A stretch of DNA of 64,000 bases from [Empedobacter] haloabium (GTDB lineage: Bacteria > Pseudomonadota > Gammaproteobacteria > Burkholderiales > Burkholderiaceae_D). The translations under genes were made by a program, and so were the position numbers. The notes below the pieces were generated by a model that searched no databases, was not told where the DNA came from, and saw only the letters and a list, made by a program, of their open reading frames with translations. Within the stretch, counting starts at the first letter, position 1, and each line of letters starts with the position of its first letter. Where the stretch lies: assembly GCA_008011715.2 (NCBI GenBank), contig CP136508.1:3658001-3722000 (forward strand), read 5' to 3'. Shown piece after piece: positions 5,242 to 38,506 of this stretch.

Positions 5242-7332
5242 CTACCCCACCGTCCCAATAATCGAAACCTCCCGATTCTCCGGCACCTCGTTATACGACA
5301 ACACATGCAAGCCCGGCGCAAATAACCGCGCATAGCGCGCCAACAGCGGCCGGATCTGCGGCAGCACCAGGAGGATCGGCGGCGTCGCGGCCTGCTTCAT
5401 CTGCTCGCGCGCCACCGGCATGTTGACCTGCAGCTGCGCCAGCAGGTGCGGGTCGATCGGGTAATTGTCCAGCACCACCTTGCCGCTCTGGCGCGCCTGA
5501 TTGAGTGAACCGAGCAGCATATTCTCCAGCTCGCCGCCCAGGTTAAACGCCAGCATTTCCTTCCGCTGCCCGAACAGGCTGCCCACGATCTGGCGCCGCA
5601 GCGCGCAGCGCACTTCCGCCGCCAGCAGGATCGGGTCCTTGGTCGTTTCGGCACTGTCCAGCAAGGTGGTGGCGATCGGCACGATGTCCTTCAAAGAGAC
5701 GTTCTCGGCCAGCAGCACCCGGAACACGCGCAAGAGCTGCGTGTGCGTCATCGCCTTGTCCAGCGCGGCGCCCAGCTTCGGGGCCAGCGCCGTCAAGCGC
5801 TCCATCAGCGCCGCCACGTCGTCGTGGCGGAACAGCTCCGGCAGGTATTCGCGGATCAATTTGGAGACGTGCGTGGCGATCGCGCTGGGCGCCTCCACCA
5901 CCTGGTAGCCCATGCCCAGCGCCTGCGCCTTGTCGGCCGGGTCGATCCAGACCACCGGCATGCCGTAGGCAGGCTCCACGCCGGGGATGCCGTCCACCTG
6001 CCCGTACATATTCGGCGACGGGATCGCCATCAGACGGTCGGGGAATACCTCGGCCTGCGCCACCGTGGCGCCACCCAGCACGACAGAGTATTGCGACGGC
6101 TTCAGGCCCAGGTCGTCGCGCACGCCGATCGGCGGCAGCACCATGCCCATCCCTTCGGACAGGCTCTGGCGCACGCCGCGAATGCGCTTGGTCAGCACCT
6201 CGCCTTGCGCCTTGTCGATCAGGCCGACCAGCTTGTAACCCAGCAGCACCTGCAGCGGGTGCACGATGGGCAGGCTTTGCCACTCCAGCTCCGGCGTCTT
6301 CTCTTCCGACAGCGCGGCCTGGATCGCCTCGATCTGTTTCGTGTCCGGCGGCGTGACCGCGCGCTGGGTCATGCGGTAGCCGGCATAGGCCAGCGCGCCG
6401 CCAAACGACAGGAACGGCAGCCACGGCATGCCCGGCACGATGCCCAGCACGACCATCAGGCCGGCGGCCGAGTACAGGATGTTCGGGCTGGCCAGCAGCT
6501 GCTTGCCCACCTCGCTTTCGAAGTCGCCCGCATCGGAAATACGGGTGACGATGATGGCGGCAGCGGCCGACAGCAGCAGCGCCGGGATCTGCGCGACCAG
6601 GCCGTCGCCGATGGTCAGCAGCGCGTACTGGCGGAACGCATCACCGAAGCTCATGTCCTGCATCAGCGAACCGATGGCGACACCGCCCACCAGGTTGATG
6701 ATCAGGATCAGGATCGAGGCGATGGCGTCGCCGCGCACGAACTTCGAGGCACCATCCATGGCGCCGTAGAAGTCCGCTTCCATCGCCACTTCACGCCGGC
6801 GCTGCTGCGCCTTTTCCTGGTTGATCAGGCCTGCGTTCAAGTCGGCATCGATGGCCATCTGCTTGCCGGGCAAGGCGTCCAGCGTGAACCGGGCCGACAC
6901 TTCCGAGATCCGTTCCGCGCCCTTCGTGACCACGGCGAAGTTGATGATCATCAGGATGACGAACACCACCAGGCCGACGACGAAATTACCGCCGATGACG
7001 ACGTTACCGAACGCCTCCACCACCCGACCCGCCGCATGCGTGCCCTCGTGGCCATGCAGCAGCACCACCCGGGTCGAGGCCACGTTCAAGGTCAGCCGCA
7101 GCATCGTGGTGGCCAGGATCACCGTGGGGAACACGGAGAAGTCCAGCGGCCGCTTGGCCTGCACCGAGACCAGGATGACGATCAGGGCCAGCACGATGTT
7201 GAACGTGAACAGCACGTCCAGCAGGATCGGTGGCAGCGGCAGGATGATCATGCCCAGGATGGACATGACGAACAGCGGCGTGGCGAACTTATGGCGGCGT
7301 AATTCGGCGACGATGCGGTTCAACAAATTCAT
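5242..7332 (-). CDS. flhA: Flagellar export gate protein FlhA
   Basis: The 696-residue protein has the full FlhA plan: eight N-terminal membrane helices in residues 1-330, the FHIPEP signature around residue 140-170 (ISEVSARFTLDALPGKQM, then AIDADLNAGLI), and a cytoplasmic C-terminal docking domain with GIRGVRQSLSEGMGMVLPPIGVRDD near 400. FlhA forms the nonameric export ring that couples proton flow to secretion and docks substrate-chaperone complexes. Length is normal for the family. Its ATG overlaps the flhB stop (ATGA), and it closes the fliMNPQR-flhBA operon, an order typical of lateral-type flagella. Confidence 0.97.
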   Translation of the reverse strand: MNLLNRIVAELRRHKFATPLFVMSILGMIILPLPPILLDVLFTFNIVLALIVILVSVQAKRPLDFSVFPTVILATTMLRLTLNVASTRVVLLHGHEGTHAAGRVVEAFGNVVIGGNFVVGLVVFVILMIINFAVVTKGAERISEVSARFTLDALPGKQMAIDADLNAGLINQEKAQQRRREVAMEADFYGAMDGASKFVRGDAIASILILIINLVGGVAIGSLMQDMSFGDAFRQYALLTIGDGLVAQIPALLLSAAAAIIVTRISDAGDFESEVGKQLLASPNILYSAAGLMVVLGIVPGMPWLPFLSFGGALAYAGYRMTQRAVTPPDTKQIEAIQAALSEEKTPELEWQSLPIVHPLQVLLGYKLVGLIDKAQGEVLTKRIRGVRQSLSEGMGMVLPPIGVRDDLGLKPSQYSVVLGGATVAQAEVFPDRLMAIPSPNMYGQVDGIPGVEPAYGMPVVWIDPADKAQALGMGYQVVEAPSAIATHVSKLIREYLPELFRHDDVAALMERLTALAPKLGAALDKAMTHTQLLRVFRVLLAENVSLKDIVPIATTLLDSAETTKDPILLAAEVRCALRRQIVGSLFGQRKEMLAFNLGGELENMLLGSLNQARQSGKVVLDNYPIDPHLLAQLQVNMPVAREQMKQAATPPILLVLPQIRPLLARYARLFAPGLHVLSYNEVPENREVSIIGTVG

Positions 7333-8462
7333 GACGGCGAAACCTCACTCATGGATGGTGGTACGACAATCTGGTCGGGGAATGCCGGCATGCCTTGCCG
7401 GCTCCCCGTCTTGAAGGCTTTCAGCTGCAGCACGTAGTGCAGCACCTGCGACACGGCCTGGTACAGCTGCACGGGAATCTGCTGGTTGACCTGGGCCGTG
7501 TTGTAGATCGCGCGCGCCAGCGGCGGCAAGGTCAGCACCTCGATCTGGTGCTCCTGCGCGATCGACTTGATGTACAGCGCCAGCTCGTCGACGCCCTTGG
7601 CCACGACGAACGGCGCCTCGGCGCGCTTCTCGTCGTACTTCAGCGCGACGGCATAGTGCTCGGGGTTGACGACGACCACGTCGGCCGTCGGCACGGTCTT
7701 GCGCGCGCTGCGCTGCGCCATCGCGCGCTGCAGCTGGCGGATGCGGCCCTTGACCTCGGGCCGGCCCTCGCTGCTCTTGTGCTCTTCCTTGACCTCCTGC
7801 TTGCTCATGCGCTGGCCCTTGGCGAAGAAGAACGCCTGCGCCGGCACGTCGAGGATGGCGAACAGGATGAAGATCGACACCAGCGCCATCAGGCCATCCG
7901 CCATCAGGTCGGCGCCCTTGATCATCGCTTCCGTCAGGGGCATCGACTGCAGCCGGGTGTAGTCGTGCAGGGTCGAACGGGCCAGGTGCACCAGCACCGC
8001 GATCAGGATGCCGGCCTTGCCGACCGACAGGGCCAGTTCGCCGCCATGCTTGGCCGAGAACAGGCGGCCCAGATTCGACATCGGGTTCATGCGCGAGAAC
8101 TTCGGCTGCAGGTTCTTCGCGCTCAGCACGAACCCGCCCGGCAGCACGGACGACAGCACGATACAGAACGGCACGATGAACAGCGGCGCCACCATCTGCA
8201 CCAGCAGCAGGCCGGCTTCGTAGAACACGTCGGACAGTGCGTTGCCGATGGTGTCGGTGCCGTCCAGCGCGATGAAGCTCTGGCCGAAGATGGCGCGGAA
8301 CTGGTCCAGGTAGGACGGCAGCAGGTAGATGAACAGCTTCAGGCTGACGAGGATGCCGACGGCCGTGGCCAGGTCCTTCGAACGGACCACCTGCCCTTCC
8401 TCGCGCGCCTTCCTCAGCTTCTGCTGTGACGCCTTCTCGGTCTTGTCGCTGCTGTCAGCCAT
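7329..8462 (-). CDS. flhB: Flagellar export switch protein FlhB
   Basis: The 377-residue protein opens with the FlhB hallmark (DKTEKASQQKLRKAREEGQV), then four membrane helices to about residue 210 and a cytoplasmic domain. The self-cleavage site at residues 266-269 reads NPEH instead of the usual NPTH; Asn and Pro, between which the chain breaks, are retained. The rest of the site (YAVALKYDE, then APFVVAKG) is canonical. FlhB switches export from rod/hook to filament substrates once FliK reports hook length. The C-terminus carries a roughly 30-residue tail rich in Pro and Ser. The gene overlaps fliR by 8 bases and flhA by 4, so translation is coupled. Confidence 0.96.
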   Translation of the reverse strand: MADSSDKTEKASQQKLRKAREEGQVVRSKDLATAVGILVSLKLFIYLLPSYLDQFRAIFGQSFIALDGTDTIGNALSDVFYEAGLLLVQMVAPLFIVPFCIVLSSVLPGGFVLSAKNLQPKFSRMNPMSNLGRLFSAKHGGELALSVGKAGILIAVLVHLARSTLHDYTRLQSMPLTEAMIKGADLMADGLMALVSIFILFAILDVPAQAFFFAKGQRMSKQEVKEEHKSSEGRPEVKGRIRQLQRAMAQRSARKTVPTADVVVVNPEHYAVALKYDEKRAEAPFVVAKGVDELALYIKSIAQEHQIEVLTLPPLARAIYNTAQVNQQIPVQLYQAVSQVLHYVLQLKAFKTGSRQGMPAFPDQIVVPPSMSEVSPS

Positions 8463-9276
8463 GATGCGGCACCTCCAGGGTAAGCGCGACGCGCGGCCGG
8501 GGAGCCGCGTGCATCTGCTGCCGGATCATCTCCAGCACCTGGCCCGACATGCGCGTGTAGTGGTCGGGAATGAAGCGTACCACCTGGCCCAGCATCAGGA
8601 GGCCATACACGGTAATGACGGAAAAGCCCAGCGAGAACAGGTTCAGCGACGGCGCCACGCGATTGAGGAAACCGAAGCCGATCTGCACCACGACGGTGGC
8701 GAACACGATCGGAATGGCCAGCAGCAGCGCGGCCGAGAAGATCCACGCCACGTTCCAGGCCACGGTCTGCAGCAGCAATGGCGCGAAGCCCCCACCCAGG
8801 GGCCAGGCCTTGAAGCTGGCGCCGATCACGTTGGTGATCACCAGGTGGCCGTCGATGGCGAAGAACACAATGATGGCCAGCATCGACAACAGGCCCGAGA
8901 CCACGTCCGACGAGGTGCCGTTGAGCGGGTCGTTCATGACGGCCATCGAAAAGCCCATCTGCGACGAGACGATGTAGCCGAGCAGGCTGATGACGGACAT
9001 GGCGAAGTGGAACGCCAGTCCCAGCACGAAGCCGATGACGGCCTGCTCCGCGGTGGCGACGGCGGCGGCCAGCGAGAACGGATCGATGACGACCATTTCC
9101 TTGCCGGTGATCGGCATCATCAGCACGGCGATGACGAGCGAGACCAGCAGCCGGATCGGCACCGGCACCATGGCTTCGCCCAGCACGGGCGCGGCCGACA
9201 GCAGCGCCATCGCGCGGACAAACGGCCACCACAACGCGTTCAGCAGGGGGAAGAGATTGGCGAGGACCTGTTCCAC
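8455..9276 (-). CDS. fliR: Flagellar export protein FliR
   Basis: GTG 9276 is taken as the start because it lies 11 bases after the fliQ stop and opens directly into a FliR-like N-terminus (EQVLANLFPLLNALWWPFVR). The same frame runs open much further upstream, but that part is antisense-like shadow over fliP and fliQ. The 273-residue product has six hydrophobic helices, the QMGFSMAVMNDPLNG segment and GLAFHFAMSVISLLGYIVS typical of FliR. FliR builds, with FliP and FliQ, the helical export channel in the MS-ring. The stop overlaps the flhB start. Confidence 0.93.
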   Translation of the reverse strand: MEQVLANLFPLLNALWWPFVRAMALLSAAPVLGEAMVPVPIRLLVSLVIAVLMMPITGKEMVVIDPFSLAAAVATAEQAVIGFVLGLAFHFAMSVISLLGYIVSSQMGFSMAVMNDPLNGTSSDVVSGLLSMLAIIVFFAIDGHLVITNVIGASFKAWPLGGGFAPLLLQTVAWNVAWIFSAALLLAIPIVFATVVVQIGFGFLNRVAPSLNLFSLGFSVITVYGLLMLGQVVRFIPDHYTRMSGQVLEMIRQQMHAAPRPRVALTLEVPHHG

Positions 9277-9287: not shown

Positions 9288-9560
9288 CTAGCCCACCAGC
9301 GTGGCGGCGCGCGTGAAGATGGAAACGCAGTAGTCCATCAGGTAGCCCGCCATCCAGCGGCCCGTCAGGATGATGGCGAACAGTGTTACCAGGAGGCGCG
9401 GCAGGAACGACAGGGTCTGCTCGTTGATCTGCGTGGCCGCCTGGAACAGCGCCACCACCAGACCCATCACCAGCCCCGGGACCACGAGCACCATCACCAG
9501 CACCATCACGATGTGCAGGGCTTCGACGACCAGGTCGACCGCGACGTCGGGTGTCAGCAT
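9288..9560 (-). CDS. fliQ: Flagellar export protein FliQ
   Basis: A 90-residue protein with two hydrophobic hairpin helices (VMVLVMVLVVPGLVMGLVVA and LLVTLFAIILTGRWMAGYLM) and the conserved QAATQINEQTLSFLPR loop, matching FliQ in length and pattern. Four FliQ copies pack around the FliP5-FliR1 core of the export gate. It sits 12 bases downstream of fliP and 11 bases before the inferred fliR start. Confidence 0.95.
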   Translation of the reverse strand: MLTPDVAVDLVVEALHIVMVLVMVLVVPGLVMGLVVALFQAATQINEQTLSFLPRLLVTLFAIILTGRWMAGYLMDYCVSIFTRAATLVG

Positions 9561-9572: not shown

Positions 9573-10421
9573 CTAATACGCCTGGATGCTGGTGACCAGC
9601 GTGTTGACCGTCAGGGTCCAGCCGTCCACCAGCACGAACAGCAGCAGCTTGAACGGCAGCGAAATCACCAGCGGCGACAGCATCATCATGCCCATCGCCA
9701 TCAGGACCGACGATACCACGAGGTCGATGATCAGGAAGGGAATGAACAGCATGCAGCCGATCTGGAACGCGGTCTTCAGTTCGGACAGCACGAAGGCGGC
9801 CAGCTTGACGGCGAAGCCATGGTTCATCGGCACCGTCACGTTGCCCTCGCCCGCCAGGGTGGCGATCTGCTTCAGCGCCGCCTTGCTGGTCTGGGCCAGC
9901 ATGAAGCGCGACACGGGCTGCTCGGCGATGCGCAGGGCCTCGTTCAGGCCGATCCTGTCCTGGTCGTACGGCACGAACGCGTCGCGCCAGACCTGGTCGC
10001 CGATCGGCTTCATGACCAGCAAGGTGAGGATCAGGGCGATGCCGGTGATGATGCGGTTGGGCAGGCCCTGCTGCAGGCCCAGCGCGGAGCGCAGCAGGGA
10101 CAGCACGATGACGAAGCGGGTAAAGCTCGTCATCATCATGACCATCACGGGCAGCAGGCCCAGGAGGGTCATGACGATCAGGATCTGCATCTTGACCGAC
10201 AGGTCGGTGGCGGCACCCGGCACCACGCCGGCCAGCAGGTCCGGCGTGTTGGCGGGCGCCTGCGCCGCCGCTTGCGCCCAGCTCTCCAGGGGCAGGCCGG
10301 CCAGCACGGCTGCCAGCAAGACTAGTACAACAGGAAACAACCGTGGCAATCTCGTCAAGACACCCCCAAAAGCAAAAGGCCGGCTCAAGCGGCCGGCCAG
10401 GGTTGCAAGGCACGTCGTCAT
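9573..10421 (-). CDS. fliP: Flagellar export protein FliP
   Basis: The 282-residue frame from ATG 10421 overlaps the fliN stop (ATGA). FliP hallmarks are clear: MMTSFTRFVIVLSLLRSALG, MNHGFAVKLAAFVLSELKTAFQIG, then FIPFLIIDLVVSSVLMAMGMM and LPFKLLLFVLVDGW. A signal peptide-like stretch starts only around residue 22 (LTRLPRLFPVVLVLLAAVLAG). A TTG at 10358 preceded by GGGGGTG would start exactly there and give 261 residues, closer to family length. In that case residues 1-21 are not translated as part of FliP and the GC-rich hairpin at 10368-10398 lies in a short intergenic space. FliP forms the pentameric core of the export channel. Confidence 0.94.
   Translation of the reverse strand: MTTCLATLAGRLSRPFAFGGVLTRLPRLFPVVLVLLAAVLAGLPLESWAQAAAQAPANTPDLLAGVVPGAATDLSVKMQILIVMTLLGLLPVMVMMMTSFTRFVIVLSLLRSALGLQQGLPNRIITGIALILTLLVMKPIGDQVWRDAFVPYDQDRIGLNEALRIAEQPVSRFMLAQTSKAALKQIATLAGEGNVTVPMNHGFAVKLAAFVLSELKTAFQIGCMLFIPFLIIDLVVSSVLMAMGMMMLSPLVISLPFKLLLFVLVDGWTLTVNTLVTSIQAY
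10368..10398 (-). terminator. Terminator-like hairpin at the fliN-fliP junction
   Basis: Read on the minus strand, GGCCGGC, a 7-base loop CGCTTGA and GCCGGCC form a perfect 7-bp GC stem, followed at once by TTTTGCTTTT. That is the form of an intrinsic terminator or attenuator in the direction of fliN to fliP. It falls within the first 20 codons if fliP begins at ATG 10421, or in the leader if it begins at TTG 10358. Termination in mid-operon would lower export-gate gene expression relative to fliMN. Confidence 0.5.
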
Positions 10422-10813
10422 GACGTCATCATGTCGAGGTTCAACCCGTCCAGGTCGATCACCTTCAAACCGTAGTTCTCGCCGGCCACGACCACTTCGG
10501 CGCGGCCGATCGCGGTGCCGTTGACCTTGATGACGAGCGGCTCGCCGGCCAGCACGTCCAGTTCGACGACGCTTTCCGGTCCAATGCTCATCAGGTCCTG
10601 CAGCGAGATGCGGGCCGAGCCCACTTCCAGCGTCAGGGTGACGGGAATCTTGCGCATCATTTGCGGCAGGTCGCGGCGCGGGGCACGCGGCGCCGGCACG
10701 TCGGCCAGTTCGCCGGGCACGGGATCGAGGATCATCTCTTCCGTCACGTCTTCGAGCATCGCGTCGTTGGTGCCGTTAGCGTTTATGTTCATCATATTAT
10801 TCGACGTCTTCAA
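10418..10813 (-). CDS. fliN: Flagellar motor switch protein FliN
   Basis: A 131-residue protein whose C-terminal 80 residues are a SpoA domain: RKIPVTLTLEVGSARISLQD, LMSIGPESVVELD, AGEPLVIKVNGTAIGRAEVV, YGLKVIDL. This is the FliN core that builds the lower rim of the C-ring with FliM and docks FliH. The N-terminal 50 residues are Asn/acidic and Pro-rich and unconserved. The start overlaps the end of fliM by 17 bases and the stop overlaps the ATG of fliP. No fliO is found between fliN and fliP, where it usually sits. Confidence 0.94.
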   Translation of the reverse strand: MKTSNNMMNINANGTNDAMLEDVTEEMILDPVPGELADVPAPRAPRRDLPQMMRKIPVTLTLEVGSARISLQDLMSIGPESVVELDVLAGEPLVIKVNGTAIGRAEVVVAGENYGLKVIDLDGLNLDMMTS

Positions 10814-11654
10814 AAGAGGTTAGGCACAGTTTTCCCTTGTGTTCGGTCACCGCGGCCGTGAACAGCCGGGAGTCTTCCAGCATCACATCGGCCCTGTGCA
10901 GGCTGACCGGGATCACGTCGCCGACACGCAGGTCGAACAGCGCGCCCAGCGTCACTTCCTTGCTGACCAGCCTGCCGTTCAGCGACACCTGCATGCGCTG
11001 CGCCAGCGGGCTCGCCGGCTTCTGCGCTTTCGGTCCCGTGTCGCGCTCGGGCAACACGCCCCGCAATACGTCGCTGATCAGGTTCTTGTCCAGCGCAAAC
11101 CACACCTTGCCTTCCAGCTCGCCGTCGCGCACGTTCATCGTGACGATCCACGTACCCTTCGGCGGGTAGGAAGCGGCGATCGGGTGCACCTCGGCCGTGG
11201 CTGGATTGTCCACACCGGGCAGGTTCGCCGCGATGCGCTGGGCCACGACTGCCGACAGTTGTTGGCCCAAAACAACGGCCAGGCGCTCCTCCGTCGCTGT
11301 AACTTTTACGGTCGCCTCGTCCACCGCGGGACCGCTTTCCTTGCCACGACCATAACGGTTATTCAGCACGGACAGCAACACCTTACGTTCCAGCGCGAAG
11401 CCCAGCACGCCGCTGCCGGCCGCATAGTGCTGCCAGCGCACGCGCGCTTCGCTGCCGTCGAGGCGCGAGAAGTCCACCGCTTCGACAGCGAAATTGCCCC
11501 AGTAGCGCCGTACCGGCCCCTGGCGCAGGGCGGCGATCAGGTCGTCGCGCAGCTGCGCCGCGAAATGCGGCAGCCGGTGCACGGGCCGGCCCAGCAGGGC
11601 AGGATCCAGCACCAGCGGCTTGGCGGTCGTTTGTATTTTAGTCATCAGTGTCAT
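10797..11654 (-). CDS. fliM: Flagellar motor switch protein FliM, short form
   Basis: The 285-residue product aligns by eye with the middle and SpoA-type C-terminal domains of FliM: a CheC-like middle (residues about 25-190, with VRWQHYAAGSGVLGFALER) and a SpoA end (QRMQVSLNGRLVSKEVTLG, FDLRVGDVIPVSLH). Typical chemotactic FliM proteins are about 330 residues and begin with a CheY-P-binding EIDALL motif. Here the protein starts MTLMTKIQTTAKPLVLDPAL and that motif is absent; no upstream in-frame extension supplies it. An in-frame ATG at 11645 is an alternative start. Short FliM is a feature I associate with lateral/Flag-2 systems. First gene of the leftward operon. Confidence 0.88.
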   Translation of the reverse strand: MTLMTKIQTTAKPLVLDPALLGRPVHRLPHFAAQLRDDLIAALRQGPVRRYWGNFAVEAVDFSRLDGSEARVRWQHYAAGSGVLGFALERKVLLSVLNNRYGRGKESGPAVDEATVKVTATEERLAVVLGQQLSAVVAQRIAANLPGVDNPATAEVHPIAASYPPKGTWIVTMNVRDGELEGKVWFALDKNLISDVLRGVLPERDTGPKAQKPASPLAQRMQVSLNGRLVSKEVTLGALFDLRVGDVIPVSLHRADVMLEDSRLFTAAVTEHKGKLCLTSFEDVE

Positions 11655-11963
11655 CCGTCCGCATATTCCGTCTGCTTTTCACATCGTATCGCAAAGTATA
11701 CAAGTGGACGATCCAGGCACGGTAGAATACCCGAAATTCTCGGTTATTGCCACGCGTCAATACGCACAAATCCCCAAATTCCTCTTTACAGTGTTGTTGC
11801 CACCCGGTAAGCTTATCCCTGTCCCGAGCAACACACTGCTGTCCTGCAGCAAAATGACAAGCAGTGCCTAGTGTTTGATTATTAAGGACATTTGCCAAAG
11901 TAACAGCGTTTCTCTTACAGGAAACAATGCAGCGCACTGAATCGACCCTGGCACATTATTTCA

Positions 11964-11985
11964 GCATGATTGCAATTAATCATGC
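11964..11985. promoter_or_regulatory. Perfect palindrome, candidate operator
   Basis: GCATGATT at 11964-11971 and AATCATGC at 11978-11985 are exact inverted repeats separated by GCAATT. The half-site and spacing suit a dimeric helix-turn-helix regulator. It is centred in the divergent fliM/fliE promoter region, so it could control both operons. No T-tract follows, so it is not a terminator. Confidence 0.45.
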
Positions 11986-12027
11986 GGCTCATCCAGATAA
12001 TCGGATGCAGGTTATGTCAGCAGTTTT

Positions 12028-12076
12028 CGGTTTTCCAATCAGGTTGCAAGCGCTGGCAACCCGGACCGGAAAACCG
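12028..12076 (+). promoter_or_regulatory. Two-tier stem-loop in the fliE leader
   Basis: Outer arms CGGTTTTCC (12028-12036) and GGAAAACCG (12068-12076) enclose inner arms GGTTGC (12042-12047) and GCAACC (12056-12061), with an internal loop of 5 and 6 bases and an 8-base terminal loop. It ends about 100 bases before the fliE start. As RNA it would be a stable leader structure; as DNA it could be a composite operator. Confidence 0.4.
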
Positions 12077-12178
12077 ACCCGTAGCACCCCCTGAAGCCAG
12101 CCACGGTCCGCCCTGGCACCAACTCTGGGGTTGCACTATGGAAAACGTAGATCAACGTTGCAAGAAAGTGAGAAGCAA

Positions 12179-12535
12179 ATGGCAAACGATATCGCCGGCA
12201 TGATCCAAGCCGACCTGGCGTCCCTGAAGAACGCCGCCGCCGACCTGGCCCAGAATGCGGCCCAGATCGCCCCGGCCGCGCAGTTCGCGGACCCTTCCTT
12301 TGCCGGTGGTTCCACCGGTTCTTTCGCGCAAGCGATGCAGAACGCCGTCTCCGGCGTGAACGCGGCCGAGCAGGCTGCCAGCGCAAAAATGGCCGATGTC
12401 GACGCCGGCCGCAGTGACGACCTGGTCGGTGCCATGATGGCCAGCCAGGAAGCCAGCCTGTCCTTCTCCATGTTGATGCAGGTTCGCAACAAGGTGATGG
12501 GCGCTGTCGACGAGCTCATCAAGCTGCCGCTGTAA
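12179..12535 (+). CDS. fliE: Flagellar hook-basal body protein FliE
   Basis: The 118-residue product starts at ATG 12179, giving MANDIAGMIQADLASLK. The C-terminal half is the FliE domain: SFAQAMQNAVSGVNAAEQAA, DDLVGAMMASQEASLSFSML, MQVRNKVMGAVDELIKLPL, the last being the usual FliE ending. FliE connects the MS-ring to the proximal rod and is an early export substrate. The first 50 residues are Ala-rich and variable. It opens the rightward flagellar operon, with fliF following after 51 bases. Confidence 0.93.
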   Translation: MANDIAGMIQADLASLKNAAADLAQNAAQIAPAAQFADPSFAGGSTGSFAQAMQNAVSGVNAAEQAASAKMADVDAGRSDDLVGAMMASQEASLSFSMLMQVRNKVMGAVDELIKLPL

Positions 12536-12586
12536 TTTCGCCGTAGTTCAGCCGATCCTCCCTCTGTTTCAAGCGAAAGTTCCGAC

Positions 12587-19332: not shown

Positions 19333-19392
19333 GCCTGACGGCCGGCCGAGCGAGCAGGGCAACCCAGAATTCAAGCATAGAACGGTGACCCC

Positions 19393-21300: not shown

Positions 21301-21307
21301 CGAGTAA

Positions 21308-26798: not shown

Positions 26799-26869
26799 CG
26801 TCGTTTCCTGTAGGTCTGTCGGTCGAGATTGGTCGGCGCTGCGAAAACCCGAGGGTCAGCCGCCGGCAG

Positions 26870-28869: not shown

Positions 28870-28892
28870 CCAACCTTTAGCGGAGTTATACG

Positions 28893-30013: not shown

Positions 30014-30024
30014 GGACCTCCGTC

Positions 30025-31215
30025 ATGAGTTTCAATATCGCACTGTCCGGCATCCAGGCCATCAACGAGCAGCTCAACAGCATTTCCAACAACATCGCCA
30101 ACGCGGGCACCTACGGCTACAAGGCCCAGCGCGCCAACTTCTCGTCGATGTACGCCGGCAGCCAGCCGACCGGTACCCAGATCGGCTCGACCACGCAGAA
30201 CATCAGCCTGACGGGCGGCATCCTGAACACGGGCCGCGCGATGGACGCTTCCATCGACGGCCGCGGCTTCTTCATCAGCAAGACCTCGACGGGCCAGGAA
30301 GTCTACAGCCGCGTCGGCATCTTCACCAAGGGCGGCGACGACTTCCTGGTCGACAGCGCCGGCCGCCGTGTGCAGGGCAACCAGCTGACCCCGGGCGAAG
30401 CCAGCGAAGGCAAGTTCGGCGACATCAAGGTGCCGGCCGGCGACCTGGCCGCCAAGGCCACGACGGAAATCGACTTCGCCGCCAATATGTCGGCCGACTG
30501 GAAGGCGCCGGCGCTGCCGTTCGACGCGGCCGACCCGGCCACCTACAACATGACCAAGGTCACCGTGGCGTTCGACAGCCTGGGCAAGGCCCACACGGTC
30601 AGCCAGTACTTCCGTCGTGCCGACGACGCCACCCGCGACATCTCGGTCGTGACGATGGTGGATGGCGTCGCCCCGACCGGCGGCACCACGACCCTGCAGT
30701 TCGACACCAGCGGCAAGCTGATCAACAGCCCGCCGACGATGGACGTCTCGTTCGCCGACGCCACCGCGGCCGACGTCGAGATCACCGTGGACTACACCGG
30801 CACCACGTTCCAGGCCGGCGAAGCGACCACGTCGACCAATATCGCCGACGGCTACGCCACCGGCAAGTACATCGGCGTCGAACTGGGTTCCGACGGCAAG
30901 GTGATCGCCAAGTACTCGAACGGCGAAGCGCAGGCCGTGGCCCAGATCAAGCTGGCCACGTTCTCCAACGACGACGCCCTGACCCCGGTCAACGACACCA
31001 GCTGGACGGCCGGCGGCGACGTGGGCACGAAGAGCCTGAGCGACCCGGGTTCGGGTCCGGCCGGCAGCCTGGCCATCGCCACGCTGGAAGGCTCGAACGT
31101 GGACATCACGTCGGAACTGGTCGGCTTGATGGGTTCGCAGCGCAACTACCAGGCGAACTCGAAGGTCATCACGACCGAGAACCAGATGCTGCAATCGCTG
31201 ATGCAGGCCCTGTAA
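30025..31215 (+). CDS. flgE: Flagellar hook protein FlgE
   Basis: A 396-residue protein starting SFNIALSGIQAINEQLNSIS, NNIANAGTYGYKAQRANF, the FlgE/F/G N-terminal motif. It carries ASIDGRGFFISK and the C-terminal LEGSNVDITSELVGLMGSQR, NYQANSKVITTENQMLQSLM. FlgE polymerises into the universal joint of the hook. The length is typical for a hook without large surface insertions. It is followed by flgF after 15 bases. Confidence 0.95.
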   Translation: MSFNIALSGIQAINEQLNSISNNIANAGTYGYKAQRANFSSMYAGSQPTGTQIGSTTQNISLTGGILNTGRAMDASIDGRGFFISKTSTGQEVYSRVGIFTKGGDDFLVDSAGRRVQGNQLTPGEASEGKFGDIKVPAGDLAAKATTEIDFAANMSADWKAPALPFDAADPATYNMTKVTVAFDSLGKAHTVSQYFRRADDATRDISVVTMVDGVAPTGGTTTLQFDTSGKLINSPPTMDVSFADATAADVEITVDYTGTTFQAGEATTSTNIADGYATGKYIGVELGSDGKVIAKYSNGEAQAVAQIKLATFSNDDALTPVNDTSWTAGGDVGTKSLSDPGSGPAGSLAIATLEGSNVDITSELVGLMGSQRNYQANSKVITTENQMLQSLMQAL

Positions 31216-31230
31216 GCGGAGCGAGCGTAA

Positions 31231-31959
31231 ATGGATGCACTGATCTACACCGCGATGAGCGGCGCCGAGCGGGCCCTGCGGGGCCAGCAGGTGCACGCCA
31301 ACAACCTGGCGAACGCCGACACGGCGGGCTTTCGCGCCAACCTGGAACTGGCCACGGCGCAAGCCGCCCAGGGCTATGGCTACGACGACCGCCACATGTC
31401 GCAGATGCAGGCCAACGCCATCTCGACCAAGCAGGGCACGCTGCGCCCGACCGGCCGCGAACTGGACGTGGCGATCTCCGGCCAGGGCATGTTCGCCGTG
31501 CAGGGCCCGACGGGCGAAGCCTACACCCGCGCCGGCAACATCACGCTGGACGCGGACGGCACGATGACCGTCAACGGCATGCAGCTGCTGGGCGAAGGCG
31601 GCCCCATCACCCTGCCGCAGAACGCCCGCATCGAGATCGGCCAGGACGGTACCGTGTCGATCCAGAGCCCGGGTGGCAAGGGCGAGATGCAGGTGATCGA
31701 CAAACTCAAGCTCGTCAAGGCCGAAGGCTCCGAGCTGACCAAGAACGAGGCAGGCCTGATCGTCGCACGCGACGGTGCCACCCTGCCCACGGATAACACG
31801 GTGCAGGTGCGCGCCGGTCATCTGGAAGGGAGCAACGTGTCCGCCGTCGAAGAGATGGTGGCCACGATGAGCCTGACTCGCACCTTCGAAGTCCAGATGA
31901 AACTGTTCAAGGCCGCGGACGACATGACCCAGGCCGGCAACCGCCTGATCGGCGGCTGA
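31231..31959 (+). CDS. flgF: Proximal rod protein FlgF
   Basis: A 242-residue rod protein: MDALIYTAMSGAERALRGQQ, VHANNLANADTAGFRANLEL, RELDVAISGQGMFAVQGPTG, EAYTRAGNITLDADGTM and the C-terminal HLEGSNVSAVEEMVATMSLT. FlgF and FlgG share these motifs; the shorter length, the DALIYTAMSGA opening typical of FlgF, and position before the distal rod gene decide the name. A hairpin follows the stop before flgG. Confidence 0.93.
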   Translation: MDALIYTAMSGAERALRGQQVHANNLANADTAGFRANLELATAQAAQGYGYDDRHMSQMQANAISTKQGTLRPTGRELDVAISGQGMFAVQGPTGEAYTRAGNITLDADGTMTVNGMQLLGEGGPITLPQNARIEIGQDGTVSIQSPGGKGEMQVIDKLKLVKAEGSELTKNEAGLIVARDGATLPTDNTVQVRAGHLEGSNVSAVEEMVATMSLTRTFEVQMKLFKAADDMTQAGNRLIGG

Positions 31960-31966
31960 TGGCACT

Positions 31967-31990
31967 TCCGGCAACATTAAAGTTGCCGGA
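31967..31990 (+). promoter_or_regulatory. Intercistronic hairpin between flgF and flgG
   Basis: TCCGGCAAC (31967-31975) and GTTGCCGGA (31982-31990) are perfect 9-base inverted repeats around the loop ATTAAA. No T-run follows, so it is unlikely to terminate transcription. It begins 7 bases after the flgF stop and may protect the upstream mRNA or separate expression of flgB-F from flgG-L. Confidence 0.45.
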
Positions 31991-32037
31991 GAGAATGCCG
32001 TAACAGTCCCAAGCGCAACACACTACAGGAGTATCCG

Positions 32038-32829
32038 ATGAATCCAGCAATGTGGATCAGCAAGACCGGCGTGCAGGCACAAGATGCCAAGCTGCAGGCC
32101 ATCGCCAACAACCTCGCCAACGCCAACACGGTCGGCTTCAAGAAGGACCGCGTGGTCTTCGAAGACCTGTTCTACTCGGTCGAAGGCCAGCCGGGCGCGC
32201 AGCGCGCCGACAACAACACGCTGGCGCCGACCGGCGTGCAGCTGGGTAACGGTACCCATATCGTCGGCACGCAGAAAGTGTTCTCGACGGGTAACGCGCA
32301 GATCACCAGCAACCAGTTCGACGTGATGATCAGCGGCAACGGCTTCCTGCAAGTGCAGCGCCCGAACGGCGAGGCGGGCTACACCCGCGCCGGCCAGCTG
32401 GGCCTGGACGCCAACGGCGTGCTGATCAACGCCCAGGGCCTGCCCCTGGTGCCGCAGATCACCGTGCCGGCCAATGCCACCTCCGTCACGATCGCCGAGA
32501 ACGGCACCGTGTCGGTGACGATGCCGGGCAATGCCGCGCCGCAGCAGGTGGGCCAGCTGACCCTGACCTCGTTCATCAACCCGGCCGGCCTGCAGGCGCT
32601 GGGCGAGAACCTGTTCCAGGAAACCGCCGCCTCCGGCGCGCCGACCGAAGGCCGCCCCGGCGACGCCCAGTTCGGCAAGCTGAAACAGGGCGCGTTGGAA
32701 GCCTCCAACGTCCAGGTGGTCGAGGAGATGGTCGACATGATCGCCGCCCAGCGCACCTATGAAATGAATACGAAGGTTCTGTCCGCAGCAGACAATATGC
32801 TGCAATATCTCGCACAGGCAGCACGATAA
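32038..32829 (+). CDS. flgG: Distal rod protein FlgG
   Basis: The 263-residue protein shows the FlgG set: MWISKTGVQAQDAKLQAIAN, NLANANTVGFKKDRVVFEDL, FDVMISGNGFLQVQRPNGEA, GYTRAGQLGLDANGVLINAQ, and the end QVVEEMVDMIAAQRTYEMNT, KVLSAADNMLQYL. Length is exactly that of distal rod proteins. FlgG runs through the P- and L-rings. A 78-base gap with a hairpin precedes it, larger than other gaps in the operon, and the TAA overlaps the flgH ATG. Confidence 0.96.
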   Translation: MNPAMWISKTGVQAQDAKLQAIANNLANANTVGFKKDRVVFEDLFYSVEGQPGAQRADNNTLAPTGVQLGNGTHIVGTQKVFSTGNAQITSNQFDVMISGNGFLQVQRPNGEAGYTRAGQLGLDANGVLINAQGLPLVPQITVPANATSVTIAENGTVSVTMPGNAAPQQVGQLTLTSFINPAGLQALGENLFQETAASGAPTEGRPGDAQFGKLKQGALEASNVQVVEEMVDMIAAQRTYEMNTKVLSAADNMLQYLAQAAR

Positions 32830-33494
32830 TGATGAAAGCGCAACTGAGCGCAATGGCCGCGTTGTTGCTGGCCGGTTGCGCCACCATCCAGCCGGCCGCC
32901 GTCCGCCCCGGCCCCTTCGACGAACCGCCCGCCGTGGCCCGCTCCAGCGCGCCACGCGGCGTGTCCGGCGGCGTGTTCTCGGCCGACGCCGGCCTGTCGC
33001 TGACCTCGGACAGCCGCGCCTTCCGCGTCGGCGACCTGGTCACCGTCATCCTGCAGGAAACCACGCAGGCGTCGAAATCGGCCGGCACCAAGCTGGGCAA
33101 GGATTCCGGCGTGGGCGTGGCCGCCCCTTCCCTGCTGGGCAAGACGTTCCCGAAAGCGGGTGTCGAGCTGAACTCGAACCACTCGTTCCAGGGCGACGCC
33201 ACCGCCACGCAGCAGAATGCCCTGTCCGGCGCGATCACCGTGATCGTGCAGGAAGTGATGCCGAACGGCCTGTTGAAGGTCGCCGGCGAAAAAGGCCTGA
33301 CCCTGAACCACGGCGAGGAATTCGTGCGCCTGCGCGGCTACCTGCGCGCCGCCGACATCGACGCCAACAACCAGGTGTCCTCGCAACGCATCGCCAATGC
33401 CCGCATCGCCTATTCGGCGCAAGGCACCCTGGCCGATACTCAGCAGCCGGGCTGGCTGTCCCGCTTCTTCCTCGGCCCATTGATGCCGTTCTGA
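32829..33494 (+). CDS. flgH: L-ring lipoprotein FlgH
   Basis: A 221-residue lipoprotein: signal [20 protein letters not shown] with lipobox LAGC (acylated Cys about residue 17). FlgH motifs follow: [91 protein letters not shown], and the ending [13 protein letters not shown]. It forms the outer-membrane bushing for the rod. The TAATG overlap couples it to flgG. Confidence 0.96.
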
Positions 33495-33501
33495 GGTGCA
33501 G

Positions 33502-34623
33502 ATGAACCACCGTGCTGTCAAACAACTCGTCGCCGCCACCCTGGTCGGCTCCTCGCTGCTGCTGTCCGCCCTGCCCGCCCAGGCCGCCCAGGTGCTGCGC
33601 AACCTCGTCTCGATCGAAGGCGTGCGGGAAAACCCGCTGGTCGGCTACGGCATCGTCGTCGGCCTGAACGGCTCGGGCGACTCGACCCAGGTGAAGTTCG
33701 CCAGCCAGTCCGTCGTCAACATGCTGAAGCAGTTCGGCGTCAAGATGCCGGACGGCGCCGACGCGAAAAGCAAGAACGTGGCGGCCGTGATGGTGTCGGC
33801 CGTGTTCCCGCCCGGCTACCGCCGCGGCCAGCCGATCGACGTCACCGTCTCCTCGCTGGGCGATGCGAAAAGCCTGCGCGGCGGTTCGCTGCTGCTGACG
33901 CCGCTGCGCGCGGCCGACAACGAAACCTATGCGCTGGCGCAGGGCAACGTGGTCGTCGGTGGCCTGGCGGCGGCCGGCAAGAGCGGCTCCTCCGTCACCG
34001 TCAACACCCCGACCACGGGCCGCATCCCGAACGGCGCCATGATCGAGCGCGAGATCGCCACCGATTTCTCGACCAATTCGACCGTGCGCCTGTCGCTGAA
34101 GCGCCCGTCGTTCGAGACGGCCACCAATATCGTCGACTCGATCAACAAGAAGTTCGGCAACGTGGCCAGCACGGACGATGCCACCAGCATCGCCGTGATC
34201 GCGCCGGAAAACCCGACCCAGCGCGTGGCCTTCATGGCCAAGCTGGAAAGCCTGACCATCGAGCAGGGCCAGGAAAACCCGAAGGTCGTGTTCAACTCGC
34301 GCACCGGCACCGTCGTCATCGCCGAAGGCCTGCGTGTCAAGGCCGCGGCCGTCACGCACGGCTCGCTCAAGGTGGTCATCTCGGAAAGCTCGAAGGTCAG
34401 CCAGCCGGGCCCGCTGTCGGGCGGCCGCACCGCCGTCACGCCGAACTCCAACGTCAGCGTGGACCAGGGCTCGGGCCAGATGTTCAAGTGGCCGGCCGGC
34501 GCCAAGCTGCAGGCCATCATCGACGTCGTCAACAGCCTGGGCGCGACCCCGGACGACATCATGGCGATCCTGCAGGCCCTCGACCAGGCCGGCGCCATCG
34601 AAGGCGAACTGGTGGTGATCTGA
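33502..34623 (+). CDS. flgI: P-ring protein FlgI
   Basis: The 373-residue product starts at ATG 33502 with GAGG at 33493-33496 (a GTG at 33496 sits on that site). A signal peptide ends PAQAAQ. Family motifs: [79 protein letters not shown], and the C-terminal [38 protein letters not shown]. FlgI builds the periplasmic ring around the rod. The TGATG overlap couples it to flgJ. Confidence 0.96.
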
Positions 34624-35039
34624 TGGATACCCGCCTGCACGCAGCAAGCCTGCCCGCCGCGCATGCGGCGGAGGACACGTCCGCGCCGGCCATCGCGCCG
34701 GCGGACGACGCGGCCTACCGCAAGAAAGCGGAACAGGCCGCCGTCAAGTTCGAGAGCTTCTTCATCGGCCACATGCTGAAACAGATGCGCAACTCGACCA
34801 AGGAGCTGTCGGCCGAGGACAGCGTCTACAAGAACTCGATCAACAGCGACATGCTGGACATGGCGGACGGCCTGGTGGCCGACCAGCTGGCCGGCCAACG
34901 CGCGTTCGGCGTCGCCGACGCCATCCTGCGCCAGCTGATGCCGGCGCCGGCCGCGCCCCGCGGCCCTGCCCTGACCACCTCCGACGTTACCCTTAAGACA
35001 ACGCAAATTGTCGACGCGAAAAATAAGCCGCAGGCTTAA
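34623..35039 (+). CDS. flgJ: Rod scaffold protein FlgJ, N-domain-only form
   Basis: Only 138 residues, against about 300 or more for two-domain FlgJ. It contains the rod-binding domain: KKAEQAAVKFESFFIGHMLK, QMRNSTKELSAEDSVYKNSI, NSDMLDMADGLVADQLAGQR, then FGVADAILRQLM. There is no muramidase domain downstream in any frame, and the protein ends in a short polar tail. The enzymatic half is a separate gene at 25257. FlgJ of this type acts as a cap for rod assembly. ATG overlaps the flgI stop. Confidence 0.92.
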   Translation: MDTRLHAASLPAAHAAEDTSAPAIAPADDAAYRKKAEQAAVKFESFFIGHMLKQMRNSTKELSAEDSVYKNSINSDMLDMADGLVADQLAGQRAFGVADAILRQLMPAPAAPRGPALTTSDVTLKTTQIVDAKNKPQA

Positions 35040-35133
35040 TGTAACGCAGGGCGCGGTCGCCTTTAACAAGTAACGGTGCTGGCGGGGAACGAACTCCCCG
35101 GCCCGCACGGCCGATACCAGGAACCTTTCCGCC

Positions 35134-36507
35134 ATGACCATTCTTAACAACGCACTGTCCGGCGCGTCCGCTGCCCAGGCTTCACTGAATGCCTCCAGCC
35201 AGAACATCGCCAACCTGCAGACCAAAGGCTACACCCGCCAGGGCGTGCTGCTGACGGCCATCACGGCCGGCATCGGCACCCAGGGCGCCGGCTCCGGCGT
35301 CAAGCTGAGCGCGATGATCCGCTTCTCGGACTCGTACAAGAGCCAGCAGCTGTGGCGTGCCAACGCCGAGCTGGGCCAGCGCACCCAGGTCCAGCCTTAC
35401 CTGACCCAGCTGGAACAGGTGATGGGCGACGACCAGTCCAGCCTGTCCAACGGCGTCGACAACTTCTTCAAGGCACTGAACGCGGTCGGCGAGGACCCGA
35501 TGTCCGGCCCGCTGCGCGGCCAGGTCGTCACGGCCGCCAATGCCATGGCGGAGAGCTTCAACAGCATCTATGCCGTCACGCGCAACCAGCAGATCTCGGT
35601 GCAGCAGCAGCGCGACTCGGTGCTGCCGAAGTTCAACACGCTGACGAAGAACATCGCCTCGCTGAACGAGCGCATCATCGCCGCCGGCGCCCAGGGCACC
35701 AATACGTCCGGCCTGATCGACGAGCGCGACGTCGCCATCGACCAGCTGTCGCAGCTGGCCGCGATCGAGGTGCTGGAACAGCCGGACGGCTCGCGCACCG
35801 TGTCGCTGAAGACGGGCCAGCCGCTGGTGGTCGGCAAGCTGGCCGGTTCGCTGGTGATCGACTCGACCAGCGGCAGCCCCGTGCTGCAGGCCTCGTTTGC
35901 CGGCACCAACTATGCGGTGGACGACAGCCGCATGGGTGGCCAGCTGGGCGGCCTGGGCAACTTCGAACGCAACACGCTGCTGCCGCTGCAAACGTCCATC
36001 AAGGAGATGGCCGAGCAGCTGGCCACGGCCGTCAACACGACCCTGGCCGGCGGCAGCGATCCGGCCGGCAACCCTGGCCAGCCCCTGTTCGCGCTGGGCG
36101 GCGGCGGCGCCGGCGGCATCCTGTCGGTGCCGAGCGGTTTCGCCGCGACGGACCTGGCATTCGCCGGGGCCGGCTTGCCACCCGGCGACAGCACCAACCT
36201 GCAGGCCCTGGTCGCGATCAAGCAGCAGGCCATCACGCTGACCTCGGTCGGCAGCGTGACGATCGGCGACGCCGACACGCAGATGGTGGGCAAGCTGGCC
36301 ATCGACAGCCAGCAGAACCAGTCGCTGCTGAACACCGCGACGACGATCCGCCGCCAGGCCGAGGACGACTGGGCCTCCACCAGCGGCGTCAACCGGGACG
36401 AGGAAGCCATGAACCTCGTCGAGTTCCAGAATATGTACCAGGCCAATATGAAGGTACTGGCGGTGGCGAACCAGCTGTTCGATTCCACGCTGTCCATGTT
36501 CGGCTAA
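35134..36507 (+). CDS. flgK: Hook-filament junction protein FlgK (HAP1)
   Basis: The 457-residue protein begins TILNNALSGASAAQASLNAS, SQNIANLQTKGYTRQGVLL, the FlgK start. Conserved segments include LTQLEQVMGDDQSSLSNGVD, NFFKALNAVGEDPMSGPLRG and LIDERDVAIDQLSQLAAIEV. The C-terminus ends NLVEFQNMYQANMKVLAVAN, QLFDSTLSMFG. It is shorter than most FlgK (about 550 or more) because the variable surface domain is small, as in lateral systems. FlgK and FlgL bridge hook and filament and are FlgN clients. Confidence 0.95.
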   Translation: MTILNNALSGASAAQASLNASSQNIANLQTKGYTRQGVLLTAITAGIGTQGAGSGVKLSAMIRFSDSYKSQQLWRANAELGQRTQVQPYLTQLEQVMGDDQSSLSNGVDNFFKALNAVGEDPMSGPLRGQVVTAANAMAESFNSIYAVTRNQQISVQQQRDSVLPKFNTLTKNIASLNERIIAAGAQGTNTSGLIDERDVAIDQLSQLAAIEVLEQPDGSRTVSLKTGQPLVVGKLAGSLVIDSTSGSPVLQASFAGTNYAVDDSRMGGQLGGLGNFERNTLLPLQTSIKEMAEQLATAVNTTLAGGSDPAGNPGQPLFALGGGGAGGILSVPSGFAATDLAFAGAGLPPGDSTNLQALVAIKQQAITLTSVGSVTIGDADTQMVGKLAIDSQQNQSLLNTATTIRRQAEDDWASTSGVNRDEEAMNLVEFQNMYQANMKVLAVANQLFDSTLSMFG

Positions 36508-36517
36508 GGAGCACACC

Positions 36518-37414
36518 ATGCGTATCGCAACCACCCAATACCAGGCCACGCTGGGCCGCTCGCTGGAGCTGAACCAGACGATGGCGTCGCGCATCTCGCA
36601 GCAGATGTCCACCGGCCGCACCATCCTCGTGCCGTCGGACGATCCCGTGACGAACGTGCGCATCTCGCGCCTGACGCGCGAGGAATCGATCGTCGGCCAG
36701 TACCGCGAGAACATCGCGTCGGTCAAGATCCGCCTGACCAAGAACGAAAGCTACATGTCGGGCATGGTCGGCGACCTGCACGCCGCGCACGACCTGCTGG
36801 TCTGGGCCGCCGACGGCAGCAACACGCCGGACGACCTGAAGTCGATGGTCGGCAGCCTGGAAGCGCTGCGCGACTCGATCCTGTACAACGCCAACACGCG
36901 TGACCAGGAAGGCAAGTACATCTTCGCCGGCACGGCGGTGACGACCAAGCCGATCGAGTTCGACGGCACCGCCTACAGCTTCGCCGGCAATACCGGCGAG
37001 CAGAAGGTGGTGGTCGGCAACGGTATCACGCAGACCGTCAACGTCGACGTGTCCGGCGTGGAAACGGTGCTGAACGACCTGAATACCGCCATCGAGGCGC
37101 TGCGCAACACGACCACGGACTCGTCGCACGATCCGCTCAAGAGTGTGCTCAGCAACACGATGGCCAGCGTGGAATCGGCGCAGGAAGCCCTGGCCGCGAA
37201 GATCGCCAAGTTCGGCGGCGCACAGAACGTGCTGACCACGCTGGACGGCAACCACGCCAACGTCAGCCTGTCCAACAAGACGGCGATGAGGGACCTCGGA
37301 CAGCTCGATTACGGTGTCGCATCGACCGAGCTGGCGGGCTACAATATGGCTCTACAGGCCAGCTATCAGTCGTACTCCAAGATCAGCAATCTGTCGCTGT
37401 TCAACGTACTCTGA
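36518..37414 (+). CDS. flgL: Hook-filament junction protein FlgL (HAP3)
   Basis: A 298-residue flagellin-fold protein. Its N-terminus reads RIATTQYQATLGRSLELNQT, MASRISQQMSTGRTILVPSD, DPVTNVRISRLTREES, a variant of the FlgL/flagellin D0-D1 start. It contains RDQEGKYIFAGTAVTTKPIE, the FlgL-specific FAG segment, and ends TELAGYNMALQASYQSYSKI, SNLSLFNVL. The FAG motif and position after flgK identify FlgL rather than flagellin. It joins the hook to the first filament subunit. Confidence 0.94.
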   Translation: MRIATTQYQATLGRSLELNQTMASRISQQMSTGRTILVPSDDPVTNVRISRLTREESIVGQYRENIASVKIRLTKNESYMSGMVGDLHAAHDLLVWAADGSNTPDDLKSMVGSLEALRDSILYNANTRDQEGKYIFAGTAVTTKPIEFDGTAYSFAGNTGEQKVVVGNGITQTVNVDVSGVETVLNDLNTAIEALRNTTTDSSHDPLKSVLSNTMASVESAQEALAAKIAKFGGAQNVLTTLDGNHANVSLSNKTAMRDLGQLDYGVASTELAGYNMALQASYQSYSKISNLSLFNVL

Positions 37415-37465: not shown

Positions 37466-38506
37466 ATGCAAATCATACAGCGCTCCAGTTCCTCCGGCAT
37501 CGCCACGGACTCCGCCGGCTCAGCATCCGCGCTGGACCAGGCCGGTGTGGCGAACGCGGGCGCTGCCCGGGACGCGGCGCCGCTCAACGGCGCCCCTGCT
37601 CCGGCCCCGCTGCGGCGCGGCCTGAGCAACTGGGACCAGCCCCTTCAGAACGACATCTCCACGGCCCAGCAGGCGGTGGACTTCCTCGAGCAGAGCGCGG
37701 CCCAGCTGCGCGCGCTGAAGAGCGACCTGTCGGCCAAGCTGGCGGCGCGCCAGATGCGCGACGGCCAGGTCGAGCAGCAGGTGCGCCAGTTCAGCGACTC
37801 CTGGCGCTCGCGCCGCGAGGCGACCGGGGGCTCGCTGGACGGCCGGCTCAATTTCACGAAAGGCGAGCCGGCCAGCCAGCGCTTCTCGGTGCGCGGCATG
37901 AACCTGGCCAACCTGCGCAACGGCGCGCGCGAGACGCTGGCCGTCTCGCTGGGCGGCGGCACGCAGGGTCTGCGCTCGGTGCACCTGTCGCCGGGGCTGT
38001 CGGACAACGAGATCGTCGGCCGCTTCGACCAGGCGCTGGCGCCGGCCGGCGTGCGCGTCTCGATGGGCCAGAACGGCGAACTGGTGTTCTCCACCGACGA
38101 AGCCAACTTCCCGGCCGTGCGCGACGCCTTTGCCGTGCAGGGCAGCGGCATCCGCTTCCCCACCGGCCAGCTGAACCGGCTGAAGGTGGAGGAGGAAGCG
38201 CCGCTCGTGATGCCGGAAAACTGGGGCACGGGCGATATCGAGCAGATGCGCGAGACGCTGCACCAGGTCATGCAGGCGCTGTCGCACGTGGAGGCGGCGC
38301 TGTCCAAGGTGCGCCAGGAGCTGGCCACGGCGCAGGCCCGCGCCGAAAGCAGCATGCCGGAAATCGAGACGGCCGGCGTGGAGGACATCGCCGACAAGTT
38401 CGCCACGATTGCCAAGGAGCCGGGCTACCAGTCGCTGCAGGCGCTGACGTCCGCGCTGGTGGGCATCAATCGCGAGCGGGTGGTGTCGCTGCTGACGCTG
38501 CGCTGA
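37466..38506 (+). CDS. LafW-like hook/filament-associated protein (flagellin-IN-like motif)
   Basis: The 346-residue protein has no signal peptide. An N-terminal helix (QNDISTAQQAVDFLEQSAAQ, LRALKSDLSAKLAARQ) is followed by a beta region with NGARETLAVSLGGGTQGLRS, VHLSPGLSDNEIVGRFDQAL and GVRVSMGQNGELVFSTDEAN, the pattern of the flagellin hook-IN motif, then a C-terminal coil (IEQMRETLHQVMQALSHVEA, ALSKVRQELATAQARAE). It lies right after flgL, the position of lafW in lateral/Flag-2 loci. It ends GINRERVVSLLTLR and lacks the flagellin D0 ends. I infer a structural role at the hook-filament zone; exact function is unknown. Confidence 0.7.
   Translation: MQIIQRSSSSGIATDSAGSASALDQAGVANAGAARDAAPLNGAPAPAPLRRGLSNWDQPLQNDISTAQQAVDFLEQSAAQLRALKSDLSAKLAARQMRDGQVEQQVRQFSDSWRSRREATGGSLDGRLNFTKGEPASQRFSVRGMNLANLRNGARETLAVSLGGGTQGLRSVHLSPGLSDNEIVGRFDQALAPAGVRVSMGQNGELVFSTDEANFPAVRDAFAVQGSGIRFPTGQLNRLKVEEEAPLVMPENWGTGDIEQMRETLHQVMQALSHVEAALSKVRQELATAQARAESSMPEIETAGVEDIADKFATIAKEPGYQSLQALTSALVGINRERVVSLLTLR

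Follow-up and report, generated by a model that had tools for sequence, protein, structure and literature searches.

The stretch of DNA analysed here, called the window in what follows, is 64 kb long and spans positions 3658001-3722000 of the single contig (6,478,808 bases) searched as the genome of the soil bacterium [Empedobacter] haloabium. At window positions 5242-38506 it holds a flagellar locus, which a sequence-only reading had assigned to the lateral (Flag-2-like) type and described as lacking a flagellin gene. We describe the genes of this locus, the flagellin genes found elsewhere in the genome and a predicted promoter motif that the lateral flagellin genes have in common with flgK of the window.

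Gene content of the locus

Genes were called by Pfam scans on part of the genes and by comparison with Escherichia coli proteins. Coordinates below are window positions.

5242..7332, minus strand: lateral FlhA (Pfam FHIPEP; 61% to E. coli Flag-2 FlhA versus 44% to Flag-1 and the genome's own polar FlhA)
7329..8462, minus strand: lateral FlhB (Pfam Bac_export_2; Flag-2 is the best match)
8455..9276, minus strand: lateral FliR (Pfam Bac_export_1; E. coli comparison)
9288..9560, minus strand: lateral FliQ (58% to Flag-2 FliQ)
9573..10307, minus strand: lateral FliP (Pfam FliP; E. coli comparison)
10418..10795, minus strand: lateral FliN (Pfam FliMN_C; E. coli comparison)
10797..11645, minus strand: lateral FliM, divergent (Pfam FliMN_C; 23% to Flag-2 FliM)
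11646..12178: fliM-fliE intergenic region, without a gene, at the position of lafK in E. coli Flag-2
12179..17846, plus strand: lateral fliE (12179), fliF (12641), fliG (14367), fliH (15404), fliI (16105) and fliJ (17412) (Pfam for E, F, G, H and J; E. coli comparison for all six, with FliI 66% to Flag-2)
17944..21823, plus strand: lateral fliD (17944), fliS (19393), FliT-like gene (19775), fliK (20083) and fliL (21308) (Pfam; E. coli comparison, without a match for the FliT-like protein)
21851..22621, plus strand: lateral sigma-28 factor FliA/LafS (sigma-70 regions 2-4; FliA/WhiG subfamily above cut-off; 52% to Flag-2 LafS versus 34% to the own polar region)
22652..24518, plus strand: lateral motor genes motA (22652) and motB/lafU (23544) (MotA1 equivalog above cut-off; E. 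coli comparison; LafU is the top model for MotB, yet below the LafU cut-off)
24557..25270, plus strand: flgM (24557) and flgN (24827) (Pfam)
25323..26054, plus strand: FlgJ-type muramidase, a separate protein (Glucosaminidase; TIGR02541 above cut-off)
27661..28428, minus strand: flgA, divergent from flgB (ChapFlgA on 27661-27975; the 255-amino-acid frame is 28% to Flag-2 FlgA)
28507..35039, plus strand: flgB, C, D, E, F, G, H and I, and the rod-binding half of FlgJ (34623-35039) (Pfam, NCBIfam, E. coli comparison)
35134..37414, plus strand: flgK (35134) and flgL (36518, with a Flagellin_N domain) (Pfam, E. coli comparison)
37466..38506, plus strand: LafW, putative lateral hook-associated protein (place as in E. 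coli Flag-2; hhalign)

The flagellar gene set is thus present as the sequence-only reading had it, with two corrections: flgA does not precede flgB in one run with it, lying instead on the opposite strand behind two genes for PEP-CTERM proteins, and the muramidase and the rod-binding half of FlgJ are separate proteins. The LafW-like call at 37466 was upheld: aligned as profiles in hhalign, this protein and E. coli LafW match with a probability of 93% across 256 columns. This protein has no Pfam or NCBIfam match, a plain tblastn search with E. coli LafW was empty there, and its AlphaFold model, being of low confidence (mean predicted local distance difference test score 63, predicted template modelling score 0.34), was not used.

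Other genes of the window include those for the two PEP-CTERM proteins just mentioned (208 amino acids each, in tandem at 26172-27496 between the muramidase and flgA), for a PAS-GGDEF-EAL protein of cyclic di-GMP turnover directly 3′ of lafW (38677-40977), and for a protein of 1087 amino acids that combines a DNA-binding domain (Trans_reg_C) with an NTPase domain (nSTAND1) (44828-48091).

Flagellin genes

A search of the whole genome with the Flagellin_N profile gave seven matches. One is lafA1, encoding a lateral-type flagellin of 299 amino acids at 3651761-3652660, which is 5,341 bases before the window start; its product is 46% to E. coli LafA, and its top NCBIfam models are LafA_2 and LafA_1, both below cut-off. 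Two further lafA copies lie at 2598473 and 3348037 and encode proteins 96% and 95% identical to that of lafA1; all three reading frames are intact. The polar fliC (490 amino acids, at 4673827) is inside a polar flagellar cluster, and an orphan polar-type flagellin of 275 amino acids, 54% to polar FliC, is found at about 233920 (L012:6915-7742). The remaining two matches are FlgL proteins, including the lateral one of the window.

No filament flagellin was found inside the window, in keeping with the sequence-only reading, although its statement that no protein with flagellin D0 ends is encoded there overlooked the Flagellin_N domain of FlgL. Of its two alternatives the first, an unlinked flagellin, holds: one gene stands just outside and two are dispersed. 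Flagellin seems to be lacking only because the window ends where it does.

The distance from lafA1 to the 3′ end of flhA is 10,582 bases. For comparison we used 80 named loci of relatives (L047-L126; FliF identity 64-86%), kept from 129 confirmed, of which 78 hold the flhA 3′ end and at least 1 kb beyond. A lafA gene of at least 60% identity is found 0.88-2.48 kb past flhA in 53 of the 78, and 25 are without one; in Pseudoduganella buxea the distance is 4.0 kb. The interval in our genome contains an Rhs gene with an Ntox21 end (L008:14007-18809), a displaced tail of an Rhs gene, carrying another Ntox21 (window 36-809), and a FliK-like gene of about 318 amino acids (L008:12756-13712), which has a partial second copy beside the Rhs tail (window about 1492-2052). 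The FliK-like gene is matched in 65 of the 80 relatives' loci and stands between lafA and flhA in the eight listed; 25 of 32 homologues carry Flg_hook at E 0.1. Given the Rhs-Ntox21 genes and the partial FliK-like copy, we attribute the separation of lafA1 from flhA to DNA having been inserted or rearranged where the locus ends.

Kinship with Flag-2 and other lateral systems

For LafA1 and 37 proteins of the window, 38 lateral proteins in all, best matches were sought in three sets: Flag-2 of E. coli RM9088, Flag-1 of E. coli K-12 and the own polar region. Flag-2 gave the highest score for 35; the muramidase was the sole protein best matched by the own polar region, and the FliT-like protein and LafW had no match at E 0.01. 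Trees of FliF (13 rows) and FlhA (12 rows, two over-long frames being trimmed by column filtering) place the window, five Oxalobacteraceae loci and Flag-2 in one group (FliF 99/98, FlhA 98/95), outside which fall the own polar proteins, those of Flag-1 and also the FliF and FlhA of Vibrio campbellii chromosome 2. The proposed lateral/Flag-2 kinship is therefore borne out by gene content, best matches and both trees. Among the 80 relatives' loci, the window FliF is closest to those of P. buxea (86%), P. flava (81%) and P. umbonata (80%), which marks the host as a Pseudoduganella-like member of the Oxalobacteraceae.

As in E. coli Flag-2, flhAB-fliRQPNM is divergent from fliEFGHIJ, a fliD-S-T-K-L-fliA-motA-lafU block is present, flgB-L is followed by LafW, there is no fliO, and the rod-binding half of FlgJ is without its muramidase. 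The locus differs in that the fliD-motB block is relocated beside fliJ, flgM-flgN is on the plus strand and apart from flgA, a separate muramidase is added, and lafK and lafZ were not found. Furthermore, lafA is beyond flhA, whereas it adjoins fliD in E. coli, and its copies are scattered over the chromosome; multiple lafA copies are also on record for E. coli Flag-2, in 156 of 592 strains (De Maayer and co-workers, PMC6993521).

The laf systems of Vibrio, Aeromonas and Plesiomonas are likewise second flagellar sets that accompany a polar one and have a sigma-28 factor (LafS), a flagellin (LafA) and a LafT/LafU motor of their own (PMC4481668, PMC4960245), and there too FliO belongs to the polar set alone, as PMC4960245 reports for Aeromonas. 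They differ from our locus in LafK, which was not found here. Other Oxalobacteraceae (Janthinobacterium, Massilia, Duganella, Rugamonas) have the same locus and the promoter motif described below, with lafA beside flhA in many; our genome differs from them in the Rhs region that parts lafA1 from flhA and in having lafA in three copies. Genes for both polar and lateral flagella had already been noted in Janthinobacterium SLB01 (PMC8929069).

With E. coli LafK as query, the genome gave 11 matches at E ≤ 1e-10, all sigma-54 activators and none in the window; the 80 relatives' loci gave no match at 1e-8. LafK is regarded as a mark of enterobacterial Flag-2 loci in PMC6993521, so its lack makes the present locus a relative of lateral type and not, strictly speaking, one of the enterobacterial Flag-2 loci. 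For LafZ, the best tblastn match in 82 kb had an E value of only 6.6; the same search also misses LafW, so a diverged LafZ could escape it. FlhC is encoded elsewhere, at 4049908. The fliM-fliE intergenic region, where lafK would stand, has a sigma-70-like TTTACA-N17-TAAGCT (read by eye), and among the corresponding regions of the 80 relatives AAGCTTAC occurs in 56 and GGTAAGCTTA in 35. Control of the basal-body genes by sigma-54 was considered and rejected: a sigma-54-like pattern is present in seven of these 80 regions and absent from our own.

Taken together, and judged from sequence, the locus is a Flag-2-type lateral flagellar system of the Oxalobacteraceae whose gene complement appears complete.

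Copies of lafA

We surveyed lafA copy number in 25 genomes of the genus, our own included, and in 16 genomes from other families of the order. A match of at least 60% identity was found in 23 of the former (one partial), leaving two without, and in none of the latter. More than one copy occurred in three genomes of the genus (3, 2 and 5 copies). P. buxea has three, of which one is syntenic with lafA1 and the others are located elsewhere, and the relative L147 has five in tandem.

The shared DNA of our three copies consists of the coding sequence and about 100-120 bases upstream, ending at the stop codon:

L010:6358-7375, L011:6029-7055 and L008:11641-12662: shared stretches of the lafA copies

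Among them nonsynonymous divergence (dN) is 0.02-0.03 and synonymous divergence (dS) 0.19-0.24; between species dS is 0.27-0.43 for lafA and 0.34 for fliF. Gene conversion among the copies was considered, since nucleotide identity within a genome (93-94% in our own, 94-96% in P. buxea) exceeds that across the two species (89-91%). However, the copies occupy different sites, and within the stretches compared no lafA is present at the lafA2 site in P. buxea or, in P. flava, at the lafA3 site, whose neighbour gene is without a match in P. buxea. Separate duplications explain the likeness within genomes, though conversion may have contributed, and lineage-specific duplication of lafA is the simplest account.

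A predicted lateral promoter motif

A block of the form TTAAT-N14-GGTCGTCTTGTACT, with a gap fixed in length and variable in sequence, stands upstream of lafA-like genes. It matched the strict pattern in 68 of 71 distinct upstream stretches, a related set with paralogues included, after removal of duplicates and of stretches in which the upstream part was shorter than 150 bases; one of the three exceptions is a near variant (L101), and the other two belong to flagellins only about 50% identical. A weight matrix built from the lafA sites found one additional site in 82 kb, in the window:

35036..35068, plus strand: predicted lateral sigma-28 promoter TTAAT-N14-GGTCGCCTT, 98 bases before the flgK ATG

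This site scored 19.9, whereas the highest score among 20 mononucleotide shuffles was 14.4. Both this spacing and GTCGCC precede flgK in all 14 readable loci (our own and 13 relatives; two of 16 loci were unreadable), with scores of -1.9 to 32.7, all above the -2.9 that marks the 99% level of 200-mers from the window. In the 6.48-Mb genome TTAAT-N14-GGTCGYCYT has exactly four exact matches, at the three lafA genes and at flgK.

The classical sigma-28 promoter is TAAA-N15-GCCGATAA. Set in that register the lateral motif becomes TAAT-N15-GTCGYC, and by eye TAAA-N15-ACCGTTAC stands upstream of our polar fliC. We infer that the motif is a lateral sigma-28 promoter; being common to lafA1-3 and flgK, it would tie the unlinked flagellins to the locus in the window.

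Several results weigh against this interpretation or against close analogy with known lateral systems. Within the window alone, the pattern with up to three mismatches has one match where 0.47 are expected, and at least one was seen in 42 of 100 shuffles. With one mismatch the genome has eight matches, compared with six for a reversed control pattern, and the four one-mismatch sites seen are inside genes or before no called gene; since such sites are at the control level, only the exact ones are informative. The motif score singles out neither lafA or flgK of E. coli Flag-2 nor fliD, motA, flgM, flgB or fliE of the window. Finally, with lafK and lafZ not found, upper regulation probably differs from that of Vibrio, Aeromonas and E. 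coli Flag-2.

The block upstream of lafA could also be an RNA regulatory element. In relatives a short hairpin lies 50-60 bases before lafA, near the presumed 5′ end of the message, with 90% of cells paired and a covariation score that only two of 500 shuffles reached. The hairpin is plausible, but just one of its five pairs shows two-sided change, a level attained by 297 of the 500 shuffles, and Rfam had no family at gathering score in eight loci (sub-threshold Qrr and mir-598 hits were taken as chance). The conserved core behaves as a two-part promoter would: its 14-base gap is fixed around a variable spacer, and it recurs before flgK with different sequence downstream. For these reasons we consider it improbable that the block is a conserved RNA element of the lafA leader, and that reading was rejected.

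On the promoter interpretation, we incline slightly to a broader proposal, that lateral FliA of the Oxalobacteraceae may have its own promoter code, distinct from the polar one, so that the two regulons would be insulated. Promoter and flagellin would then form a mobile unit, with which lafA copies could settle at unlinked sites and stay under lateral control, as may have happened in the parallel sets of three in this species and in P. buxea and in the tandem five of L147.

Interpretation

We are confident that the genome encodes a complete lateral system of the Flag-2 family beside a separate polar flagellum. The window encodes the export gate, basal body, hook, cap, chaperones, sigma-28/anti-sigma pair and motor, and the genes for the filament protein LafA are lafA1, at the flhA end of the locus, and the two dispersed copies. 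Completion of the hook would lead to export of FlgM and so free lateral FliA (LafS), which would transcribe the late genes, the three lafA and flgKL-lafW, from TTAAT-N14-GGTCGYCTT; LafA would then be assembled into the filament. The polar flagellum with its own fliC would be the primary system. That lateral FliA reads the motif, that all three flagellins are in use and that the organelle is a lateral one used for moving on surfaces are each probable on this model.

The sequence-only reading had also proposed an apparatus that ends at hook and cap and serves secretion or surface sensing. Such a device would fit a window without flagellin and a lafA1 gene 10.6 kb from flhA behind an Rhs region, but we hold it very improbable and it is unneeded: three intact lateral flagellin frames exist with dN far below dS, their promoters are of the kind found at flgK, and the locus has retained FliS, FliD and FlgK/L.

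Least probable of all is a primary flagellar system whose fliC is dispersed, which the earlier reading expected if a flagellin elsewhere answered to this FliA and the genome had no other flagellar set: the flagellins really are dispersed and the motif suggests such control, but a second set, of polar type and comprising FliF, FlhA, FliA, FlgB-K and a fliC of its own, is located at 4.67-4.73 Mb, and in their trees FliF and FlhA of the window fall in with Flag-2, apart from Flag-1 and from the own polar set. In this dual-flagellated bacterium the locus is the secondary system.

A spurious ‘flagellum without flagellin’ is thereby removed, and the case illustrates a general trap, in that a filament gene may lie outside its locus, past the far end. 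Most of the finding is ordinary; its useful details are the promoter code and the way lafA has spread in single lineages. The latter offers an example of a lateral flagellin that has multiplied in a lineage-specific manner, and the former a concrete predicted lateral sigma-28 promoter, with four exact sites in the genome, that may serve to ask how dual-flagellated cells separate their regulons.

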